From Roseobacter weihaiensis (GTDB lineage: Bacteria > Pseudomonadota > Alphaproteobacteria > Rhodobacterales > Rhodobacteraceae): DNA of 64,000 bases. Positions 7,318-56,079 of this stretch are shown here, one piece after another. The first letter of the stretch is position 1; each line of letters begins with the position of its first letter. The translations under genes were made by a program, and so were the position numbers. The stretch spans positions 1-64,000 of the forward strand of contig NZ_JACNMO010000005.1 in NCBI RefSeq assembly GCF_020622345.1, given 5' to 3'. Under the pieces are notes generated by a model that was given only the letters and a program-made list of their open reading frames with translations, did not search any database and was not told the origin of the DNA.

Positions 7318-7734
7318 TCAGGCAGAATACTGCTTTTCCACGATATCATCGACATGCTGGCTGCATTCGATTTTGCCCGACAAGACGTCGGCAACCGGCC
7401 ACCATCGCGCATCGCTGACATCATCCCGGGCGACAGGTTCGCCCACATGGTATTCACAAAGAACCGCCGCAAGCAGGAAATGGAACCGAACGGCCCCCTC
7501 ATCGTCGCGCTCGATCACATCTACGTTCGTCAGATAGCGACGCGGCTGGCCTGTCACACCGGTCTCTTCGTAGAGCTCACGCACGGCGGCCTCCATCGCG
7601 GTTTCGCCAAGGTCCACATGGCCGCCCGGAAAACCCCAGCGACCGGCATCCGGTTCATTTCGGCGCTTGACGAGAAGCACTTGGTCCGCCCGTATCACGA
7701 CAGCCAGAGCAGCAAGTTTTGGATGATTTGTCAT
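7318..7734 (-). CDS. Nudix hydrolase
   Basis: 138 residues from ATG 7734 (MTNHPKLAALAVVI); the longer frame to 7851 lacks homology. The Nudix box is complete: GGHVDLGETAMEAAVRELYE followed by ETGV fits GX5EX7REUXEEXGU, the Mg-binding helix that hydrolyses nucleoside diphosphates linked to X. The preceding RWGFPGG and the following FHFLLAAVL strand also fit. The substrate cannot be read from the sequence. It is a single-gene unit convergent with the NOS gene. Confidence 0.85.
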   Translation of the reverse strand: MTNHPKLAALAVVIRADQVLLVKRRNEPDAGRWGFPGGHVDLGETAMEAAVRELYEETGVTGQPRRYLTNVDVIERDDEGAVRFHFLLAAVLCEYHVGEPVARDDVSDARWWPVADVLSGKIECSQHVDDIVEKQYSA

Positions 7735-8127
7735 GAGGTGAGTTTTGCAGAGCGTGGCGGCGAAAGAAAGCCTGGGGTAATTGTTGGTGGCTGGATTTGC
7801 GCCTGGGACCCGGACCATGGGTGCAAGGGGGGATATCTCCGCCGTGGCCATGCCCGGTCTGAGCAGGTGTTTGACCGTCGCACTGTGGCAGGCTTAAAAC
7901 GACAAGCTTGGTGATCAGCCACCAGGATCGTCCCGCTGCCAGCGCCTGATGAGCCTCGGGCGACCCTCCGGTCTATCGCTGTGAAAAACCCTAATTCCGC
8001 CTTGAATTATGATCGGCTGCAATTCAGCGGAGGGGTTGGTTCCCGCAAATGCCAACACGACCGCTGCTGTGTCGCCCAGCTTTCCGTTTTTGGCAGTTGC
8101 AGCGGCCTGACCCTTCGGCACCAACCG
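7735..8127. other. Intergenic region
   Basis: About 390 bp between radC and the Nudix gene, both on the minus strand. A 69-codon minus frame (7915-8124) follows radC, but I recognise no domain in it. No terminator hairpin with a T-tract is evident. Confidence 0.3.
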
Positions 8128-9072
8128 TCAGCCGCATGCAAACATGCCTTCGGCTTTGAAAGAAAACTCCGTCTGCTTACCGATAATCACATGATCATGG
8201 ATGGTGACGCCGATCGCGGCGCAAGCAGATGCAACACTGTCCGTCATTGCGATGTCTTGCGAACTGGGAGAGGGATCACCGGAGGGATGATTGTGTATCA
8301 GGATGATCGCGCTCGCATTCAACTCAAGTGCCCGTTTGGCCACTTCGCGCGGATAAACAGGAACGTGGTCTACCGTGCCCTGTGACTGTTCTTCATCTGC
8401 AATGACGATGTTCTTCCTATCCAAGAACAGGATGCGAAACTGTTCGGTTTCGCGATGCGCCATAGAGGTTCTGCAGTATGTAATGAGGTGATCCCAAGAC
8501 GACATGACCTCTCGTTTCAGAACTTTTGCCTGACCCATCCGCTGCGCAAAAGCTTCTGCAATCTTGAGCTGCAAGTATACTTTCTCGTCCGCTCCCTCCA
8601 CTTGCAAAACACGATGCCGAGATGCCGCAACAACTCCATTCAGATCACCGAACGTACTCAGCAACCTCTTTGCCAGTGGTTTTACATCGATACGGGGAAT
8701 AGCGTTGAACAGTACAAGCTCCAACAACTCATATTCCGGCATGGACTTGTGTCCGCCATCCATGAAGCGCGTTCTCAGACGTTTGCGATGACCCCAGTAA
8801 TGGGGTACGCGGTTGCCTTCGCCATCCATCAGCAAACCGCCACCGGCGGCTGCAGTTTTGGAAAGTTTGCTTGTCTGTCTGTAAGACGGTGCAAAAGCCG
8901 GCCGTGTCTCGATGCCGGGTGGTGGGACCCTTGCGTCCAGATCCGCAAGGCCACGCAGTGCATCCTCCGAAAACCCGCTTGGAGGGTTTTTCAAAATACG
9001 GCGCGAAACCTGCGGGGCCGCTTTTTGCCTTTTACCAAGGATTGTCGCTCCAGAAGTAAACCAACGGTTCAT
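8128..9072 (-). CDS. radC: RadC family JAB-domain protein
   Basis: 314 residues. The C-terminal half has VPVYPREVAKRALELNASA, then IHNHPSGDPSPSSQD, the JAMM-type HxHx7SxxD metal motif of RadC, ending HDHVIIG. A helix-hairpin-helix-like region (EYELLELVLFNAIPRIDVKP) precedes it. About 80 N-terminal residues are a poorly conserved, Pro/Lys-rich extension. ATG 9072 follows TAGGAGG at ideal spacing, so the extension is probably real. RadC is often carried on mobile elements; its biochemical role is unsettled. Confidence 0.85.
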   Translation of the reverse strand: MNRWFTSGATILGKRQKAAPQVSRRILKNPPSGFSEDALRGLADLDARVPPPGIETRPAFAPSYRQTSKLSKTAAAGGGLLMDGEGNRVPHYWGHRKRLRTRFMDGGHKSMPEYELLELVLFNAIPRIDVKPLAKRLLSTFGDLNGVVAASRHRVLQVEGADEKVYLQLKIAEAFAQRMGQAKVLKREVMSSWDHLITYCRTSMAHRETEQFRILFLDRKNIVIADEEQSQGTVDHVPVYPREVAKRALELNASAIILIHNHPSGDPSPSSQDIAMTDSVASACAAIGVTIHDHVIIGKQTEFSFKAEGMFACG

Positions 9073-51190: not shown

Positions 51191-52351
51191 TCACTCGCCA
51201 CAGATATCTTCGGCAAGGGCAAGCCCGTAACCGAACATCGGATCGCGCCCCGCGGGCCCAAGTTCTTCGCTGGTCGCCGAAAGACGATTGCGCACGTCGG
51301 CGACACTGCGTGCCGCGACAAGGGAAGGGTCGGCCACCAATCGGGCGGTGACAAAGGGGGTTGCAATCGATGTGCCCGTTACGAAACGCGCGCTGCGGCC
51401 GGATGGCACCAGCACGTCCACACCAGGAGCCGCGATATCCACATGCGGACCGCGCACAGCATTGCGGTAGATGCGCCGCTCGGCGTCTACCGCAGTCACA
51501 GCGATCACCCCGTCGAAACCGGCGGGATAAAGGGGATCAACATCCGGACCCTCGTTACCGACAGCCGCCACCAGGATCAGACCACGCGCCACAGCCCGTT
51601 CAACGGCGAGGTCGAGCAGTTTATTGTATGGCCCGGCGAGCGCGAGATTGACGAAACGCACCTCTTCCTGCGCCAGCCAGTCGAGCGCCCGCACGAGGGA
51701 ATCCGCACCCGCCTTCAGTCCGAGAGCATCTTGTTGCCCAAAGACATTCGCCCCGTAGATCATGACCCCTGTCAGGCGGTCGGGGTTGGCGAGAACAGCG
51801 GCAACGTCCGTACCATGAGCGGCTGGCACCGCCTGACCATCGAAGAATGAACGCGTGATTACCTTCACCCCGGCCAGCGCAGGGGCGGAGGTGTCGATCC
51901 CGGTATCGATCACCCCCACAGGCCCTCGCGCACGGCATCCATTTTTGCGCCAGCGCATCATCTCGTTGGCATAATCCAGTGTCTGCGCGGTGCGCGCCGT
52001 TTGCTGGAGACGGTAGGCGTGGTTGATGCCCACCGTGGCACTCGGCACCGCCGCTTCAAGCGCGGCAATCGCCTCCGGCCCCGTGACACCGGCAGGCATC
52101 CGGAACGTGAGCATCGTAAGCTCAAGTCCGCGCAAACGGGTCACGTCGAGCACCTGATAGCCATCGGAAACAGCCGCGGCACGCATGTCAGCGGTGGCCT
52201 GCGCATCGGGGACAAGCGCGATGACTTTGCGCGGCCCGACGGCGTCCGGTTCAACGATCCCCGGGCCATGACGCAACGCCGCGCAGCCGAGCAGCATCAG
52301 AAAAAGACTGACAGCGGCGACCAGACGACCGAACTGTATGGCGTGGAACAT
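51191..52351 (-). CDS. Lipoprotein subtilisin-like serine protease (S8)
   Basis: 386 residues. A signal peptide with lipobox LLGC (Cys23) suggests lipid anchoring in the periplasm. Residues 40-115 form a propeptide-like segment (VLDVTRLRGLELTMLTFRMP, EAIAALEAAVPSATVGIN). The catalytic triad is Asp149 (VIDTGID), His179 (AAHGTDVAAV) and Ser328 (VTGTSIATP), with oxyanion Asn266 (AVGNEGP). It is divergent from the anti-sigma-like gene, 183 bp away, suggesting a role in the same signal path. Confidence 0.9.
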   Translation of the reverse strand: MFHAIQFGRLVAAVSLFLMLLGCAALRHGPGIVEPDAVGPRKVIALVPDAQATADMRAAAVSDGYQVLDVTRLRGLELTMLTFRMPAGVTGPEAIAALEAAVPSATVGINHAYRLQQTARTAQTLDYANEMMRWRKNGCRARGPVGVIDTGIDTSAPALAGVKVITRSFFDGQAVPAAHGTDVAAVLANPDRLTGVMIYGANVFGQQDALGLKAGADSLVRALDWLAQEEVRFVNLALAGPYNKLLDLAVERAVARGLILVAAVGNEGPDVDPLYPAGFDGVIAVTAVDAERRIYRNAVRGPHVDIAAPGVDVLVPSGRSARFVTGTSIATPFVTARLVADPSLVAARSVADVRNRLSATSEELGPAGRDPMFGYGLALAEDICGE

Positions 52352-52426
52352 GCTTTATCTTTCTTTGTGTCGGGTGGCGCACCGGCACGCCTTGTTTCAA
52401 ACCCTTTGTCGTTCGGAGCTCGGTAC

Positions 52427-52498
52427 GGGTTCAAAAAAAGGGAAAAAATACATCCCGAGACAAACAATTTTTGAACCCTGTCGCAAGACTGTGCGACA
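52427..52498. promoter_or_regulatory. Inverted repeats in the protease/anti-sigma divergent promoter
   Basis: GGGTTCAAAAA (52427-52437) and TTTTTGAACCC (52468-52478) form a perfect 11-bp inverted repeat. Directly after it TGTCGCA (52479-52485) and TGCGACA (52492-52498) form a second. The GAACC element resembles ECF sigma -35 boxes, so the neighbouring ECF factor may act here in both directions. Confidence 0.5.
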
Positions 52499-52534
52499 AA
52501 GCCTTGAACACTGCAACACAACGGGTGCGATGAC

Positions 52535-53104
52535 ATGGATCGGGATGACGCAATTCTCAACTATCTGCAAAATCGGCTTGCCCCCGAGGATCGCGCACAG
52601 TTCGAGGCCTCCATGACACAGGATGCATCGCTTTCCGCCGAAGTCGACCTGATGCGGTCGGTCCGCGCAGACTTGGCGGCGGCGCCAAAGCACCAAAACA
52701 GCGATGCCGTGTGGGCCAGACTGGCTGCCAGTATTGATCCCGTGCCTCAGCCGGCCAATGAAAACCGCCGCCCCTGGATGCAGGTCTTGCGATATGCGGC
52801 TGTCGCTTGCATTGCGGTTGCCGCCTGGCAGTTCACCATCGTGCCACGCACCGGCAGCGTGTCAGAGGGATTTCGCACATCAAGCGAGCGCGCGCCGGCT
52901 TTCATCCTTCAGGTCAAGTTTGTCGAGAGCGCAACAATCGGCGAAATCGGTACATTGCTCGCAGCCTTGGGTGGGACAATCTCCGACGGGCCGAGTGCGC
53001 TCGGAGTGGTCCGTGTGTCCTTCCCCGATCAGGCGTCGCAACGAGAGGCCATGGAAGCGTTGAGCGCCCGGACCGATTTGGTAGAGATCGTTCTGGAGCA
53101 ATGA
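52535..53104 (+). CDS. Anti-sigma-factor-like membrane protein with a propeptide-like periplasmic domain
   Basis: 189 residues. The N-terminus (AILNYLQNRLAPEDRAQFEA, SMTQDASLSAEVDLMRSVRA) matches the cytosolic end of RskA/FecR-type anti-sigma factors, without zinc ligands. One transmembrane segment follows (LRYAAVACIAVAAWQFTIVP, 84-103). The periplasmic end (LQVKFVESATIGEIGTLLAA, LGGTISDGPSALGVVRVSFP, AMEALSARTDLVEIVLE) looks like a subtilase propeptide of the fervidolysin type. It is divergent from the S8 gene and convergent with the ECF gene, whose stop is 1 bp away. Confidence 0.7.
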   Translation: MDRDDAILNYLQNRLAPEDRAQFEASMTQDASLSAEVDLMRSVRADLAAAPKHQNSDAVWARLAASIDPVPQPANENRRPWMQVLRYAAVACIAVAAWQFTIVPRTGSVSEGFRTSSERAPAFILQVKFVESATIGEIGTLLAALGGTISDGPSALGVVRVSFPDQASQREAMEALSARTDLVEIVLEQ

Positions 53105-53105
53105 T

Positions 53106-53642
53106 CTAGCGGCGCATCCCCGCCGTGAGACACCGCATCAAGGCCTGTTTGGCATGAAAGATGCGGGTCTTGATCGTCCCGACCGGCACGGCCTCGATTT
53201 CAGCAATCTCCGGGTAGGTGAGATCTTCCAGAAAGGCGAGACGGATGGCTGATTGCTGCACATCTTTCAACCCATTCAAACACCGATGAAGCCGTTGCTT
53301 TTCTGATGCCGCGATCACCGCCGCCTCCGGGTCCGGGGCGGTATCTGCGCTTTCGGGCACCTCGTCCACGAAGGACAGCCTGCCGCGTTTGCGCAGCGCA
53401 TCGACCAATTTGTTGCGCGCAATCGCGAAGAGCCAGGTCTTCACGCTCGAGCGCCCCGAAAAGCGCGATGCGGTACGCCAGACATCGAGCATCGTGTCAT
53501 GCACACAATCCGATGCAAGCTCTTCGTTCCTGCAGCGGGCAACTGCGAACCCATAGACGGCGTCATTGTATCGGTTGTACAGATCTCGCATGGCACCTTT
53601 GTCGCCTGCGGCAATACTTGAAATGAGATCCTTGTCGTCCAT
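53106..53642 (-). CDS. ECF-type RNA polymerase sigma factor
   Basis: 178 residues from ATG 53642 (frame open to 53672). Sigma region 2: MRDLYNRYNDAVYGFAVARC, DTMLDVWRTASRFSGRSSVK, TWLFAIARNKLVDALRKRGR. Region 4: LKDVQQSAIRLAFLEDLTYP, EIAEIEAVPVGTIKTRIFHA, KQALMRCL. It has no region 1 or 3, as in ECF factors. It is convergent with the anti-sigma-like gene rather than in one operon with it, an unusual layout. Confidence 0.92.
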   Translation of the reverse strand: MDDKDLISSIAAGDKGAMRDLYNRYNDAVYGFAVARCRNEELASDCVHDTMLDVWRTASRFSGRSSVKTWLFAIARNKLVDALRKRGRLSFVDEVPESADTAPDPEAAVIAASEKQRLHRCLNGLKDVQQSAIRLAFLEDLTYPEIAEIEAVPVGTIKTRIFHAKQALMRCLTAGMRR

Positions 53643-53672
53643 CGTATTTTCGGCTCGCCGGTCCCACCACAT

Positions 53673-54044: not shown

Positions 54045-55679
54045 CTAGGCAATCATGAAATCGTCGGCGATAAAGTCTGTGACCACAGTATCTTCGAATG
54101 TGATCACCTTGTTGTTTAGGGCCAGTTCCACGTCGTCTCCGACCTGGGTCAGGTTTGCGAGCAGGTTTTCGGTGGTGACGTCAGGATCTGTTGTGACGAA
54201 CTGCAACTGGTCTACGCCGATCTCGAAATCGAGGATGATATCGATGCCATTGTCTTCCTCGAAGAACACGAAGGTATCCGCCCCTTCACCGCCGCGCATC
54301 ACGTCATTCCCCGCACCGCCGCGAATGACGTTGTCCTGATCGTTGCCGCTGATCGTGTCGTCAAACGCGGTGCCGGTGACGTTTTCGAAATTCTCAGCCG
54401 TCGAATTGCCCAGCGTGCCAGCTTTCAGATTGACGGCGACCGCCTCCGCGGCCTGCGACAGATCCAGCGTGTCCACGCCATCGCCACCGTCCAGATCGAG
54501 GACGATCTCGTCCAATACTGTGTCCACGATCACGGCCGTATCATCGCCGCCCCCGAAATTCGTCTCCAGGGTCTCCGTTTTGCGGATGTCAAGCTGGAAG
54601 AGACCACGCTCGGTCTGGTCGTTCACTTCGATCCGGGCAAACTGCACACCTTTGTCGGTCATCGAGAATTCAGCAACATCCCTGTTCTGCAGATCGTCGT
54701 TCACCAAATCCGTGTCGAAATTGACCTGAACCAGATCGTCTCCCTTGCCGCCATTCATCAGGTCCGATCCGTCGCCATTGTTCCAGACAAGGATGTCGTC
54801 GCCGCGACCGCCATAGATGAAATCGTCGCCCTTGTTGCCGACAAGGGTGTCATCCCCCCCACGACCAAAGATCTTGTCGACACCGCCGAGGCCTGAAATG
54901 ACGTTGTCCTGCTTGTCGCCGGTGATTTTGTCGTCGAACGCGGTGCCGATAACATTTTCAAAATTCTCAACCGCCGAATTCCCCAGCGTGCCAGCCTTCA
55001 GATTGACGGCAACCGCCTCGGCCGCCTGCGACAGATCCAGCGTGTCGATGCCGTCACCGCCATCAAGGTCGAGCGTGATCTCGTCCAGCACCGTGCCCAC
55101 GATCACCGCCTTGTCGTCCCCACCGCCAAAATTCGTCTCCAAAGCTTCGGTTTCACGAATGTCGAGCTGGAACAGGCCACGCTCGGTCTGGTCATTCACT
55201 TCGATCCGGGCAAACTGTACGCCCTCCTCTGTCACAGAAAATTCGGCCACGTCCTTGTTCTGCAGATCGTCGTTGACAAGATCGGTGTCGAAATTCACCT
55301 GCGCCTTGTCATAGCCGCTGCCGCCATTCATCAGGTCCGAGCCATCGCCGTTGTTCCAGACCAACAGGTCGTCGCCACGACCCCCGAACATTTGGTCATC
55401 CCCCCTATTGCCGACAACCCGGTCATTTCCGGAACCCCCGGAGAGGTAATCGTCGCCGTCGCCACCTTCCAAGGTGTCATGACCGGACCCGCCAAAGATC
55501 ACATCATCGCCAAGACCTCCTGTGATTTTGTCATCGCCAAAAAGGCCAAAGATCAGGTCGTCCCCCCCGTTGCCAGCGATCTCGTCATCGCCGAACGTAC
55601 CGACAATAAGCTCGTCGCGGTTCGAGCCACCGATCTGGAGGCCACCGAAAAACAGATTAAATAAGTTGAAGCTAGGCAT
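54045..55679 (-). CDS. RTX calcium-binding protein with a large internal duplication
   Basis: 544 residues from ATG 55679 (GGAGAATCC upstream). An N-terminal RTX block (GGSNRDELIVGTFGDDEIAG, GGDDLIFG, HDTLEGGDGDDYLSGG) is followed by two almost identical units of about 190 residues (about 95-270 and 288-460). Both contain LVWNNGDGSDLMNGG, FARIEVNDQTERGLFQLDIR and LDLSQAAEAVAVNLKAGTLG. A short RTX run (IRGGAGNDVMRGGEGADTFV) and a C-terminal hydrophobic/acidic type I secretion signal end it. No T1SS genes are in the window. Probably a secreted, Ca-folded surface protein. Confidence 0.85.
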   Translation of the reverse strand: MPSFNLFNLFFGGLQIGGSNRDELIVGTFGDDEIAGNGGDDLIFGLFGDDKITGGLGDDVIFGGSGHDTLEGGDGDDYLSGGSGNDRVVGNRGDDQMFGGRGDDLLVWNNGDGSDLMNGGSGYDKAQVNFDTDLVNDDLQNKDVAEFSVTEEGVQFARIEVNDQTERGLFQLDIRETEALETNFGGGDDKAVIVGTVLDEITLDLDGGDGIDTLDLSQAAEAVAVNLKAGTLGNSAVENFENVIGTAFDDKITGDKQDNVISGLGGVDKIFGRGGDDTLVGNKGDDFIYGGRGDDILVWNNGDGSDLMNGGKGDDLVQVNFDTDLVNDDLQNRDVAEFSMTDKGVQFARIEVNDQTERGLFQLDIRKTETLETNFGGGDDTAVIVDTVLDEIVLDLDGGDGVDTLDLSQAAEAVAVNLKAGTLGNSTAENFENVTGTAFDDTISGNDQDNVIRGGAGNDVMRGGEGADTFVFFEEDNGIDIILDFEIGVDQLQFVTTDPDVTTENLLANLTQVGDDVELALNNKVITFEDTVVTDFIADDFMIA

Positions 55680-56079
55680 TGGATTCTCCATTCAAATATC
55701 ATTTTCGTCTTTATGTTCACCGCCACCTGTCCCGAGCCTGCTCCTGTTGTCTAAGCCTCAGGTTTGTGCCCGTGCAGCCGGCGAGACATCCATTGGTCGC
55801 GCCGACGCCAACCACGGTTCAAAATTATTTTGGGGGGGCGGCCGCAATGCAAAGGAGACCTTGTCAAGACAATCTCCAGGTCATGTCGACCCAACCGGAG
55901 GGCTGCAAAACTCAATTGACAGCCTGCGTTTCCGGTGTGCGTTAGATGGCACGACATCTGCGCAATGAGGATCATCTGGTGAATGAGAAGCAGATCAAAG
56001 ACCAAGGCCCGGGGCAGAAAATGGATGGCGTTTCTCAATCACAAGCGACCACACCCGGCAGTTGGCGGACAGCCGCCTC

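Follow-up and report, generated by a model that had tools for sequence, protein, structure and literature searches.

Gene content of the locus

The sequence analysed here comprises positions 1-64,000 of the forward strand of contig NZ_JACNMO010000005.1 from Roseobacter weihaiensis (assembly GCF_020622345.1). This whole stretch of 64,000 nucleotides is hereafter named the window, and the locus under study, at 51191-53642, encodes a subtilase of peptidase family S8, a membrane anti-sigma factor and an extracytoplasmic function (ECF) sigma factor. An initial annotation made from the sequence had placed these three proteins there, and all three were confirmed at the same positions (Table 1). The anti-sigma factor is a membrane switch that restrains the sigma factor, and conservation of the trio in many bacteria suggests that this switch is read or cut by the protease.

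Table 1. Features of the S8/anti-sigma/ECF locus and its surroundings, in window coordinates.
Feature	Position	Strand	Basis
S8 subtilase, predicted lipoprotein, 386 amino acids	51191..52351	-	PF00082
S8 catalytic domain, residues 145-376	51224..51919	-	Pfam
S8's own predicted prodomain, residues 42-113, order beta-alpha-beta-beta-alpha-beta	52013..52228	-	low-confidence model and alignment
Anti-sigma factor, 189 amino acids, one transmembrane segment	52535..53104	+	
Inner anti-sigma domain, about residues 1-70	52535..52744	+	family profile against 2q1z_B
Transmembrane segment, about residues 84-102	52784..52840	+	hydropathy; single hydrophobic stretch
Stalk motif, residues 113-117, window copy FRTSS, candidate site-1 cut	52871..52885	+	
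Outer domain, residues 119-189, subtilase-prodomain-like, signature GPSALG	52889..53101	+	PF22148, model, Foldseek
ECF sigma factor, 178 amino acids	53106..53642	-	PF04542 and PF08281
Predicted ECF promoter of the S8 gene, TTTGAACCC-N15-CGACAAAG	52404..52435	-	
Predicted ECF promoter of the anti-sigma gene, same motif, opposite strand	52470..52501	+	
RTX calcium-binding repeat protein, 548 amino acids	54045..55691	-	PF00353, E 1.9e-38
Third copy of TTTGAACC-N16-CGAC, before the RTX gene	55796..55823	-	

By Pfam scan, the sigma protein has sigma regions 2 and 4 and hardly anything more, which places it in the ECF group; an alternative upstream ATG at 53672 is possible. The anti-sigma factor had been annotated as a one-transmembrane protein with an anti-sigma-like inner end, and this description was borne out: it has one hydrophobic stretch, and over the inner part the family profile gave a match to the anti-sigma domain of ChrR (2q1z_B, E 3.4e-5). 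With this N-terminal domain and an adjoining ECF gene, it qualifies as a class I anti-sigma factor. The inner domain also matches NCBIfam NF052375 at 41.7 bits, under the cut-off of 100. Anti-sigma domains without zinc are known, and the window protein does not class with the zinc-binding His/Cys type, no zf-HC2 match being found in it at E<=1 in the Pfam scan; 6 of 33 relatives have such a match at E<=0.01.

In the window, the anti-sigma and sigma genes are convergent and the S8 gene is divergent from the anti-sigma gene. Convergence of sigma and anti-sigma genes was found in 12 of 34 loci, the window counted, and in the remaining 22 all three genes lie on one strand. The convergent layout is a minority form, in keeping with the initial remark that it departs from the usual single operon.

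An outer domain resembling subtilase prodomains

The outer end of the anti-sigma factor (residues 118-188) had been likened at first sight to a subtilase propeptide, and the family search agrees. When the whole protein was scanned, PF22148 (Fervidolysin_NPro-like) was the sole Pfam match at E<=1, at 20.6 bits, just under the cut-off of 21, and residues 119-189 scanned alone reached 23.6 bits (E 7e-5), above it. For the family at large, 45 of 52 listed stretches were submitted as isolated outer domains. PF22148 matched 15 of these 45 at E<=0.05, every other Pfam family matching one at most. Among whole proteins it matched 4 of 33 at E<=0.01, and the protein of locus L116 passes the cut-offs of both zf-HC2 and PF22148 (24.7 against 21 bits) at full length.

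The initial annotation would have been refuted by an outer domain predicted to have another fold than the ferredoxin-like one of propeptides; structure prediction gave the matching fold. In an AlphaFold model built from a five-sequence alignment, the outer domain takes the ferredoxin-like order beta-alpha-beta-beta-alpha-beta expected of PF22148 (strand 123-129, helix 135-145, strands 148-151 and 158-163, helix 166-178, strand 183-188), a fold common to many unrelated proteins. The predicted local distance difference test score (pLDDT) was 76-88 for blocks of this domain and 64.7 on average for the whole model. A Foldseek search with the domain retrieved the prosubtilisin chain 3cnq_P (probability 0.99, root-mean-square deviation 2.5, E 0.16), whose target-normalised template-modelling score, 0.66, was the highest among the 50 matches listed of 1155. 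Taken together, fold and family support of moderate strength make the outer domain prodomain-like.

Subtilisin-type prodomains plug the active site with a C-terminal tail. Among the 33 closest relatives, the outer domain ends 1-7 residues (median 3) past the position of V186 in the last strand, so that, by comparison with subtilisin, it is probably devoid of such a tail. For this reason we call it prodomain-like, rather than a prodomain.

Linkage of the three genes across genomes

The anti-sigma factor was searched in 295 genomes of the family; 37 had matches, and 38 places besides the window were fetched. In 33 of the 38, sigma factor, anti-sigma factor and S8 protease lie side by side. This count includes L065, in which the anti-sigma frame (7721-8446) is broken by a stop, the neighbouring sigma and S8 genes being open. 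The five matches outside the trio are L066, L069 and L070, not anti-sigma-like by eye, L067, without a hit, and L071, where a sigma factor stands with an anti-sigma factor of other appearance and no S8.

Beyond the family, the profile gave some match in 93 of 398 genomes of the phylum, many to the inner domain only. Twenty full-length matches from 14 genera were chosen, further full-length matches being mostly of the same genera, and as controls we took 20 anti-sigma factors from 17 genera that were matched in the inner domain only. An S8 gene adjoins 19 of the 20 full-length matches (L128 is the exception), against 4 of the 20 controls (L162, L163, L172, L173). The difference is significant by locus (Fisher p 2e-6), and also when each genus is counted once (13/14 against 4/17, p 2e-4). 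These control counts led us to reject, as a complete explanation, that such linkage comes with every ECF/anti-sigma pair. Co-occurrence in other genomes had been named as a check in the initial annotation, and it was found both in the family and across the phylum: S8 protease, anti-sigma factor and ECF sigma factor are a real, conserved unit.

Starting from the protease, we found 51 S8 places in the 295 family genomes at E<=1e-20, of which 32 were already known to stand beside a prodomain-type anti-sigma factor. Among the other 19, fourteen have an anti-sigma factor with another outer domain (judged by eye, and including L153, cut by a contig end), two (L146, L152) are of the prodomain type and had been missed at the cut-off of the first search, one (L151) has a sigma match only, and two (L141, L149) lie by contig ends. 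In all, 48 of the 51 have sigma and anti-sigma genes beside them, 34 of the prodomain type and 14 of the other. The S8 subfamily thus appears tied to ECF signalling in general, with the prodomain-bearing anti-sigma factor as its commoner partner in the family genomes searched. That the prodomain-like domain is a must for this S8 was rejected, as the same subfamily stands beside the other outer domain in 14 of those 19 loci. Another S8 of the window's own genome (L135) is a remote one, with no sigma or anti-sigma match.

The S8 protease and its own N-terminal domain

The catalytic domain of the window protease matches PF00082 with an E of 9e-24, and the same family was found in all 34 proteins scanned. 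Residues D149, H179 and S328 of the catalytic triad are invariant in 34 aligned sequences, the window included, and N266 is nearly so; on the strength of the triad, the protein is predicted to be an active protease. Of the first description as a lipoprotein subtilase, the subtilase part is secure and the lipoprotein part less general: the N-terminus carries a lipobox-like LLGC with Cys23, recognised by eye, and the lipobox is missing in many aligned relatives. Two further cysteines, the nearly invariant Cys139 just before the catalytic domain and the invariant Cys384 near the C-terminus, perhaps form a disulfide closing the domain.

Upstream of the catalytic domain, the protease has a predicted prodomain of its own, which in the alignment runs on into a conserved H.Y segment and for which Pfam gave no match. 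The S8 model was poor (mean pLDDT 44 overall, blocks of 49-85 at residues 41-110), and was therefore not used for a fold search. Its residues 42-109 show the same order of strands and helices as the outer domain of the anti-sigma factor. A similar spacing had been noted for protease segment 60-110; the likeness of order holds in the model, and no profile link was found. Sequence homology between the outer domain and this prodomain was accordingly rejected, the profile-profile comparison being not significant (P 0.023, with 0.006 for a control pair of outer and inner domains), and the agreement consists in predicted strand and helix order only.

Co-variation of the outer domain with the protease

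Distance matrices were compared for 31 loci (the 33 rows less L064 and L068, which have remote S8s), using partial correlations with permutation p values, a coarse measure that falls short of proving contact. The outer domain co-varied with the S8 catalytic domain given the sigma factor (partial r 0.41, p 0.0005), and not with the sigma factor given S8 (0.04, p 0.32). The inner domain co-varied with the sigma factor given S8 (0.49, p 0.0005). In view of the co-occurrence and the control counts, outer domain and S8 look like partners more than like chance neighbours, and we think it highly probable that they are direct partners. The initial annotation had proposed that this S8 is inhibited by the outer domain or cleaves it. 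The proposal is partly supported: for the partnership the support is good, from adjacency, controls and co-variation; as regards inhibitor or substrate, these data leave both standing.

These results also bear on another account, by which the protease would be a mere output gene, the neighbourhood would reflect the regulon, and the outer domain would sense another ligand, its ferredoxin-like fold being merely prodomain-like. Ferredoxin-like folds are indeed common, anti-sigma factors with a different outer domain also stand beside this S8 subfamily, and in Sinorhizobium meliloti the ECF26 sigma factor RpoE6 drives the divergent serine-protease gene SMa0142, for which no activating role is reported (PMC6180224). 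Such an account would not explain that the outer domain co-varies with the protease and not with the sigma factor, that a subtilase prodomain is the single Pfam family with hits in two or more outer domains, and that linkage falls from 19/20 to 4/20 in the controls; we regard it as improbable.

A conserved motif in the stalk

Between the transmembrane segment and the outer domain, the family shares a short motif of the form [YF]xx[hydrophobic][SGTA]. Aromatic residues at P4 with Ala or Leu at P1 suit subtilases, which is why we propose the site-1 cut in this stalk. For counting, the pattern [YFW]xx(hydrophobic or T)(small) was applied by the same method to 53 relatives and to 16 control anti-sigma factors without S8. 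It was present in 48 of the 53 relatives and in none of the 16 controls; the reversed pattern was present in 9/53 and 3/16. In 1000 shuffles of the stalks the mean was 15.7 and the largest count 29, against the 48 observed. The tighter form [GDEAT][YF]xx[AL][SGT] occurred in 29/53 relatives and 0/16 controls.

A segment resembling this motif was seen near the C-terminus of 13 anti-sigma factors of the other type (L134, L136-L140, L142-L145, L147, L148, L150; L153, cut by a contig end, was left out). It reads GYAPAS or similar, with variants GYVPAG, GYAPAG, SFVPAS and DFVTAS. As these rows are homologous, the likeness counts as one event and is only suggestive.

Promoter motif and predicted regulon

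The stretch that separates the S8 gene from the anti-sigma gene holds two divergent sites of the form TTTGAACCC-N15-CGACAAAG (mean of 100 shuffles, 0.00). Genome-wide, TTTGAACC-N16-CGAC has three sites only, before the anti-sigma, S8 and RTX genes, and its reversed control none. A similar pattern gave 43 sites against 1 reversed in 35 related loci, and 48 against 5 reversed in 10 whole genomes, one of which has none. With a looser pattern, no site was found before the sigma gene in the window.

The motif precedes an RTX gene in six further loci (L034, L035, L038, L041, L077, L079), and the RTX gene of the window is likely, judging from the motif, to be an output of the sigma factor. The same four genes, RTX included, occur in Roseobacter sp. 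MH60115 and in Ruegeria sp. 2205SS24-7 (L079). By eye, the RTX protein of the window (54045-55691) consists of two similar halves.

In four loci with the same-strand layout (L050, L051, L052, L061), the motif precedes genes for proteins with signal-like N-termini, mostly small (by eye). Eight such downstream proteins were scanned and two passed a Pfam cut-off, that of L051 with polyglycine-hydrolase-like BTRD1 repeats and that of L050 with CARDB.

A model for release of the sigma factor

The model that we put forward is that the inner domain would keep the sigma factor at the membrane, and that the outer domain, a look-alike of a subtilase prodomain acting in trans, would serve as a docking site for the adjacent S8. 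Since little of the outer domain follows the last strand, the active site would stay open on docking, and S8 would then make the site-1 cut at the stalk motif [YF]xx(A/L)(S/G/T), between the transmembrane segment and the outer domain. To this docking and cutting by S8 we give an even chance of being right. A housekeeping site-2 protease (S2P) would complete the release of the sigma factor. A candidate S2P, an M50 protease, is encoded in the same genome (C24, E 2.4e-65); such a protease is also present in 14 of 14 control genomes, so that its presence is weak evidence. The freed sigma factor would transcribe the genes for S8 (positive feedback), the anti-sigma factor (reset) and the RTX protein (output). 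The protease's own prodomain would compete for the same docking site, so that anything taking this prodomain away or displacing it would set off the system. Gene content, prodomain likeness, linkage, co-variation, stalk motif and promoter motif are observations; docking, cutting, the S2P step, feedback and trigger are inferred from them.

This last point can be made the centre of a sensor. The protease would have two possible lids, its own prodomain in cis and the look-alike on the anti-sigma factor in trans. A signal that strips or loosens the former would let the latter dock, which would bring the stalk motif into the active site, release the sigma factor and yield more protease. We put this variant forward tentatively, as less likely than not.

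The same partnership could also work without cutting, and the evidence for it serves such a reading equally well. The outer domain would then be an inhibitor or a folding helper of S8; either binding of free protease would alter the anti-sigma factor and free the sigma factor, or the anti-sigma factor would restrain the protease, and the cell would sense its own protease level. Prodomains normally inhibit and fold subtilases, and a promoter motif shared by the anti-sigma and protease genes is what a matched pair would have; longer tails in some members of other classes agree as well. Malarial SUB1 has as an inhibitor a propeptide-like protein that stands alone (PMC6993865). Against this reading, the tail of 1-7 residues among the 33 closest members would be too short to plug an active site, and the conserved stalk motif would go unexplained. 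For the docking model, the short ending and the conserved stalk motif both fit a docking module beside a cut site better than a classical inhibitor, and we think titration without cutting unlikely.

Several observations weigh against docking and cutting. The S8 subfamily also pairs with ECF/anti-sigma systems of apparently unrelated outer domain, the 14 loci above, which speaks against the model in its simple form. The prodomain likeness has limits: in Foldseek, RRM-like (RNA recognition motif) and other ferredoxin-like folds rank with 3cnq_P, and no match, 3cnq_P included, reaches E 0.001; with the outer domain alone as query, a sequence-profile search of the PDB returned no prodomain, its best match being an RNase H at E 0.09; and no significant profile link ties the domain to the protease's own prodomain. 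Longer tails, as in L116, L118, L121 and L123 from other classes, show that the short ending is not true of the whole family. The stalk motif was derived from the family itself, whose rows are related to one another; two of its 48 matches (L124, L128) lie, by eye, away from the usual site, the stretch used for one control (L156) holds no believable transmembrane segment, and the window's own FRTSS, which deviates from the motif at position 4, does not count as a match. The inner domain, too, co-varied with S8 given the sigma factor (partial r 0.34, p 0.0005). A lipoprotein with Ala after the Cys may reside in the outer membrane. Lastly, SMa0142 of S. meliloti ECF26 is reported as a target of the sigma factor, not as its activator (PMC6180224).

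How an ECF system chooses the site-1 protease for its anti-sigma factor is often unknown. Here the anti-sigma factor itself would point to a candidate, through a domain that resembles the prodomain of that protease class. The model can be tested in a culturable roseobacter, given the candidate site of cutting, the promoter motif and the small regulon predicted. If it is true, signals would be carried across a membrane by prodomain docking; if the competition between the two lids is true, prodomain release, known from protease maturation, would serve many Pseudomonadota as a signal for transcription.

Comparison with known systems

A serine protease gene divergent from an ECF/anti-sigma pair is already published for ECF26 (PMC6180224). 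For an anti-sigma factor with a subtilase-prodomain-like domain, no description was found in open-licence full texts, and the 2021 ECF re-classification may cover a matching group.

In ECF26 of S. meliloti, the gene of RpoE6 is divergent from the serine-protease gene SMa0142, which it drives, an arrangement described as widely conserved in the group, and the activation mechanism is termed hypothetical (PMC6180224). The RpoE6-EcfR6/SMa0142 system shares with ours an ECF sigma factor, an anti-sigma factor with transmembrane segment and periplasmic domain, and a serine-protease gene raised by the sigma factor (PMC6180224). It differs in its promoter, GGAATA/GT (PMC6180224) against TGAACC/CGAC in the window, and in layout: in the ECF26-like loci examined S8 is divergent from the sigma gene, in the window from the anti-sigma gene. 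Judged on promoter and layout, the window system falls outside ECF26. No PF22148 match was found in the three ECF26-like anti-sigma factors scanned (L134, L136, L143), whose outer domain looks different. One of these loci, L134 on contig C2, is a second S8/ECF/anti-sigma locus of the window's own genome, fitting ECF26 in promoter and divergent protease; GGAATA/CGT sites lie before its S8 gene and inside its sigma gene.

Subtilase genes are also conserved beside the ECF54 sigma gene, and protease control was proposed there from conserved nearby carboxypeptidase, subtilase and CHAT-domain genes (PMC8999054). ECF54 differs in that it is stated to be without an anti-sigma factor, the proposal being degradation of the sigma factor (PMC8999054).

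For the outer domain, the likeness to the fervidolysin-type prodomain PF22148 lies in the score of the isolated domain, above cut-off, and in the predicted ferredoxin-like order; the window domain differs in being separate from the protease and in stopping just after the last strand. Plasmodium SUB1-ProM is likewise a prodomain-like protein encoded beside subtilase genes and acting in trans (PMC6993865). It is a stand-alone inhibitor of measured potency, whereas the window domain is part of a membrane anti-sigma factor and has a short tail.

A parallel in the proposed order of events is the sigma-E system RseA/DegS/RseP, where a one-transmembrane anti-sigma factor is cut by a periplasmic serine protease at site 1 and then by an S2P (PMC8103513, PMC10202637), as we propose here. 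DegS belongs to the HtrA family and carries a PDZ domain (PMC8103513, PMC10202637); in the window, an S8 protease and a prodomain-like docking domain would take its place.

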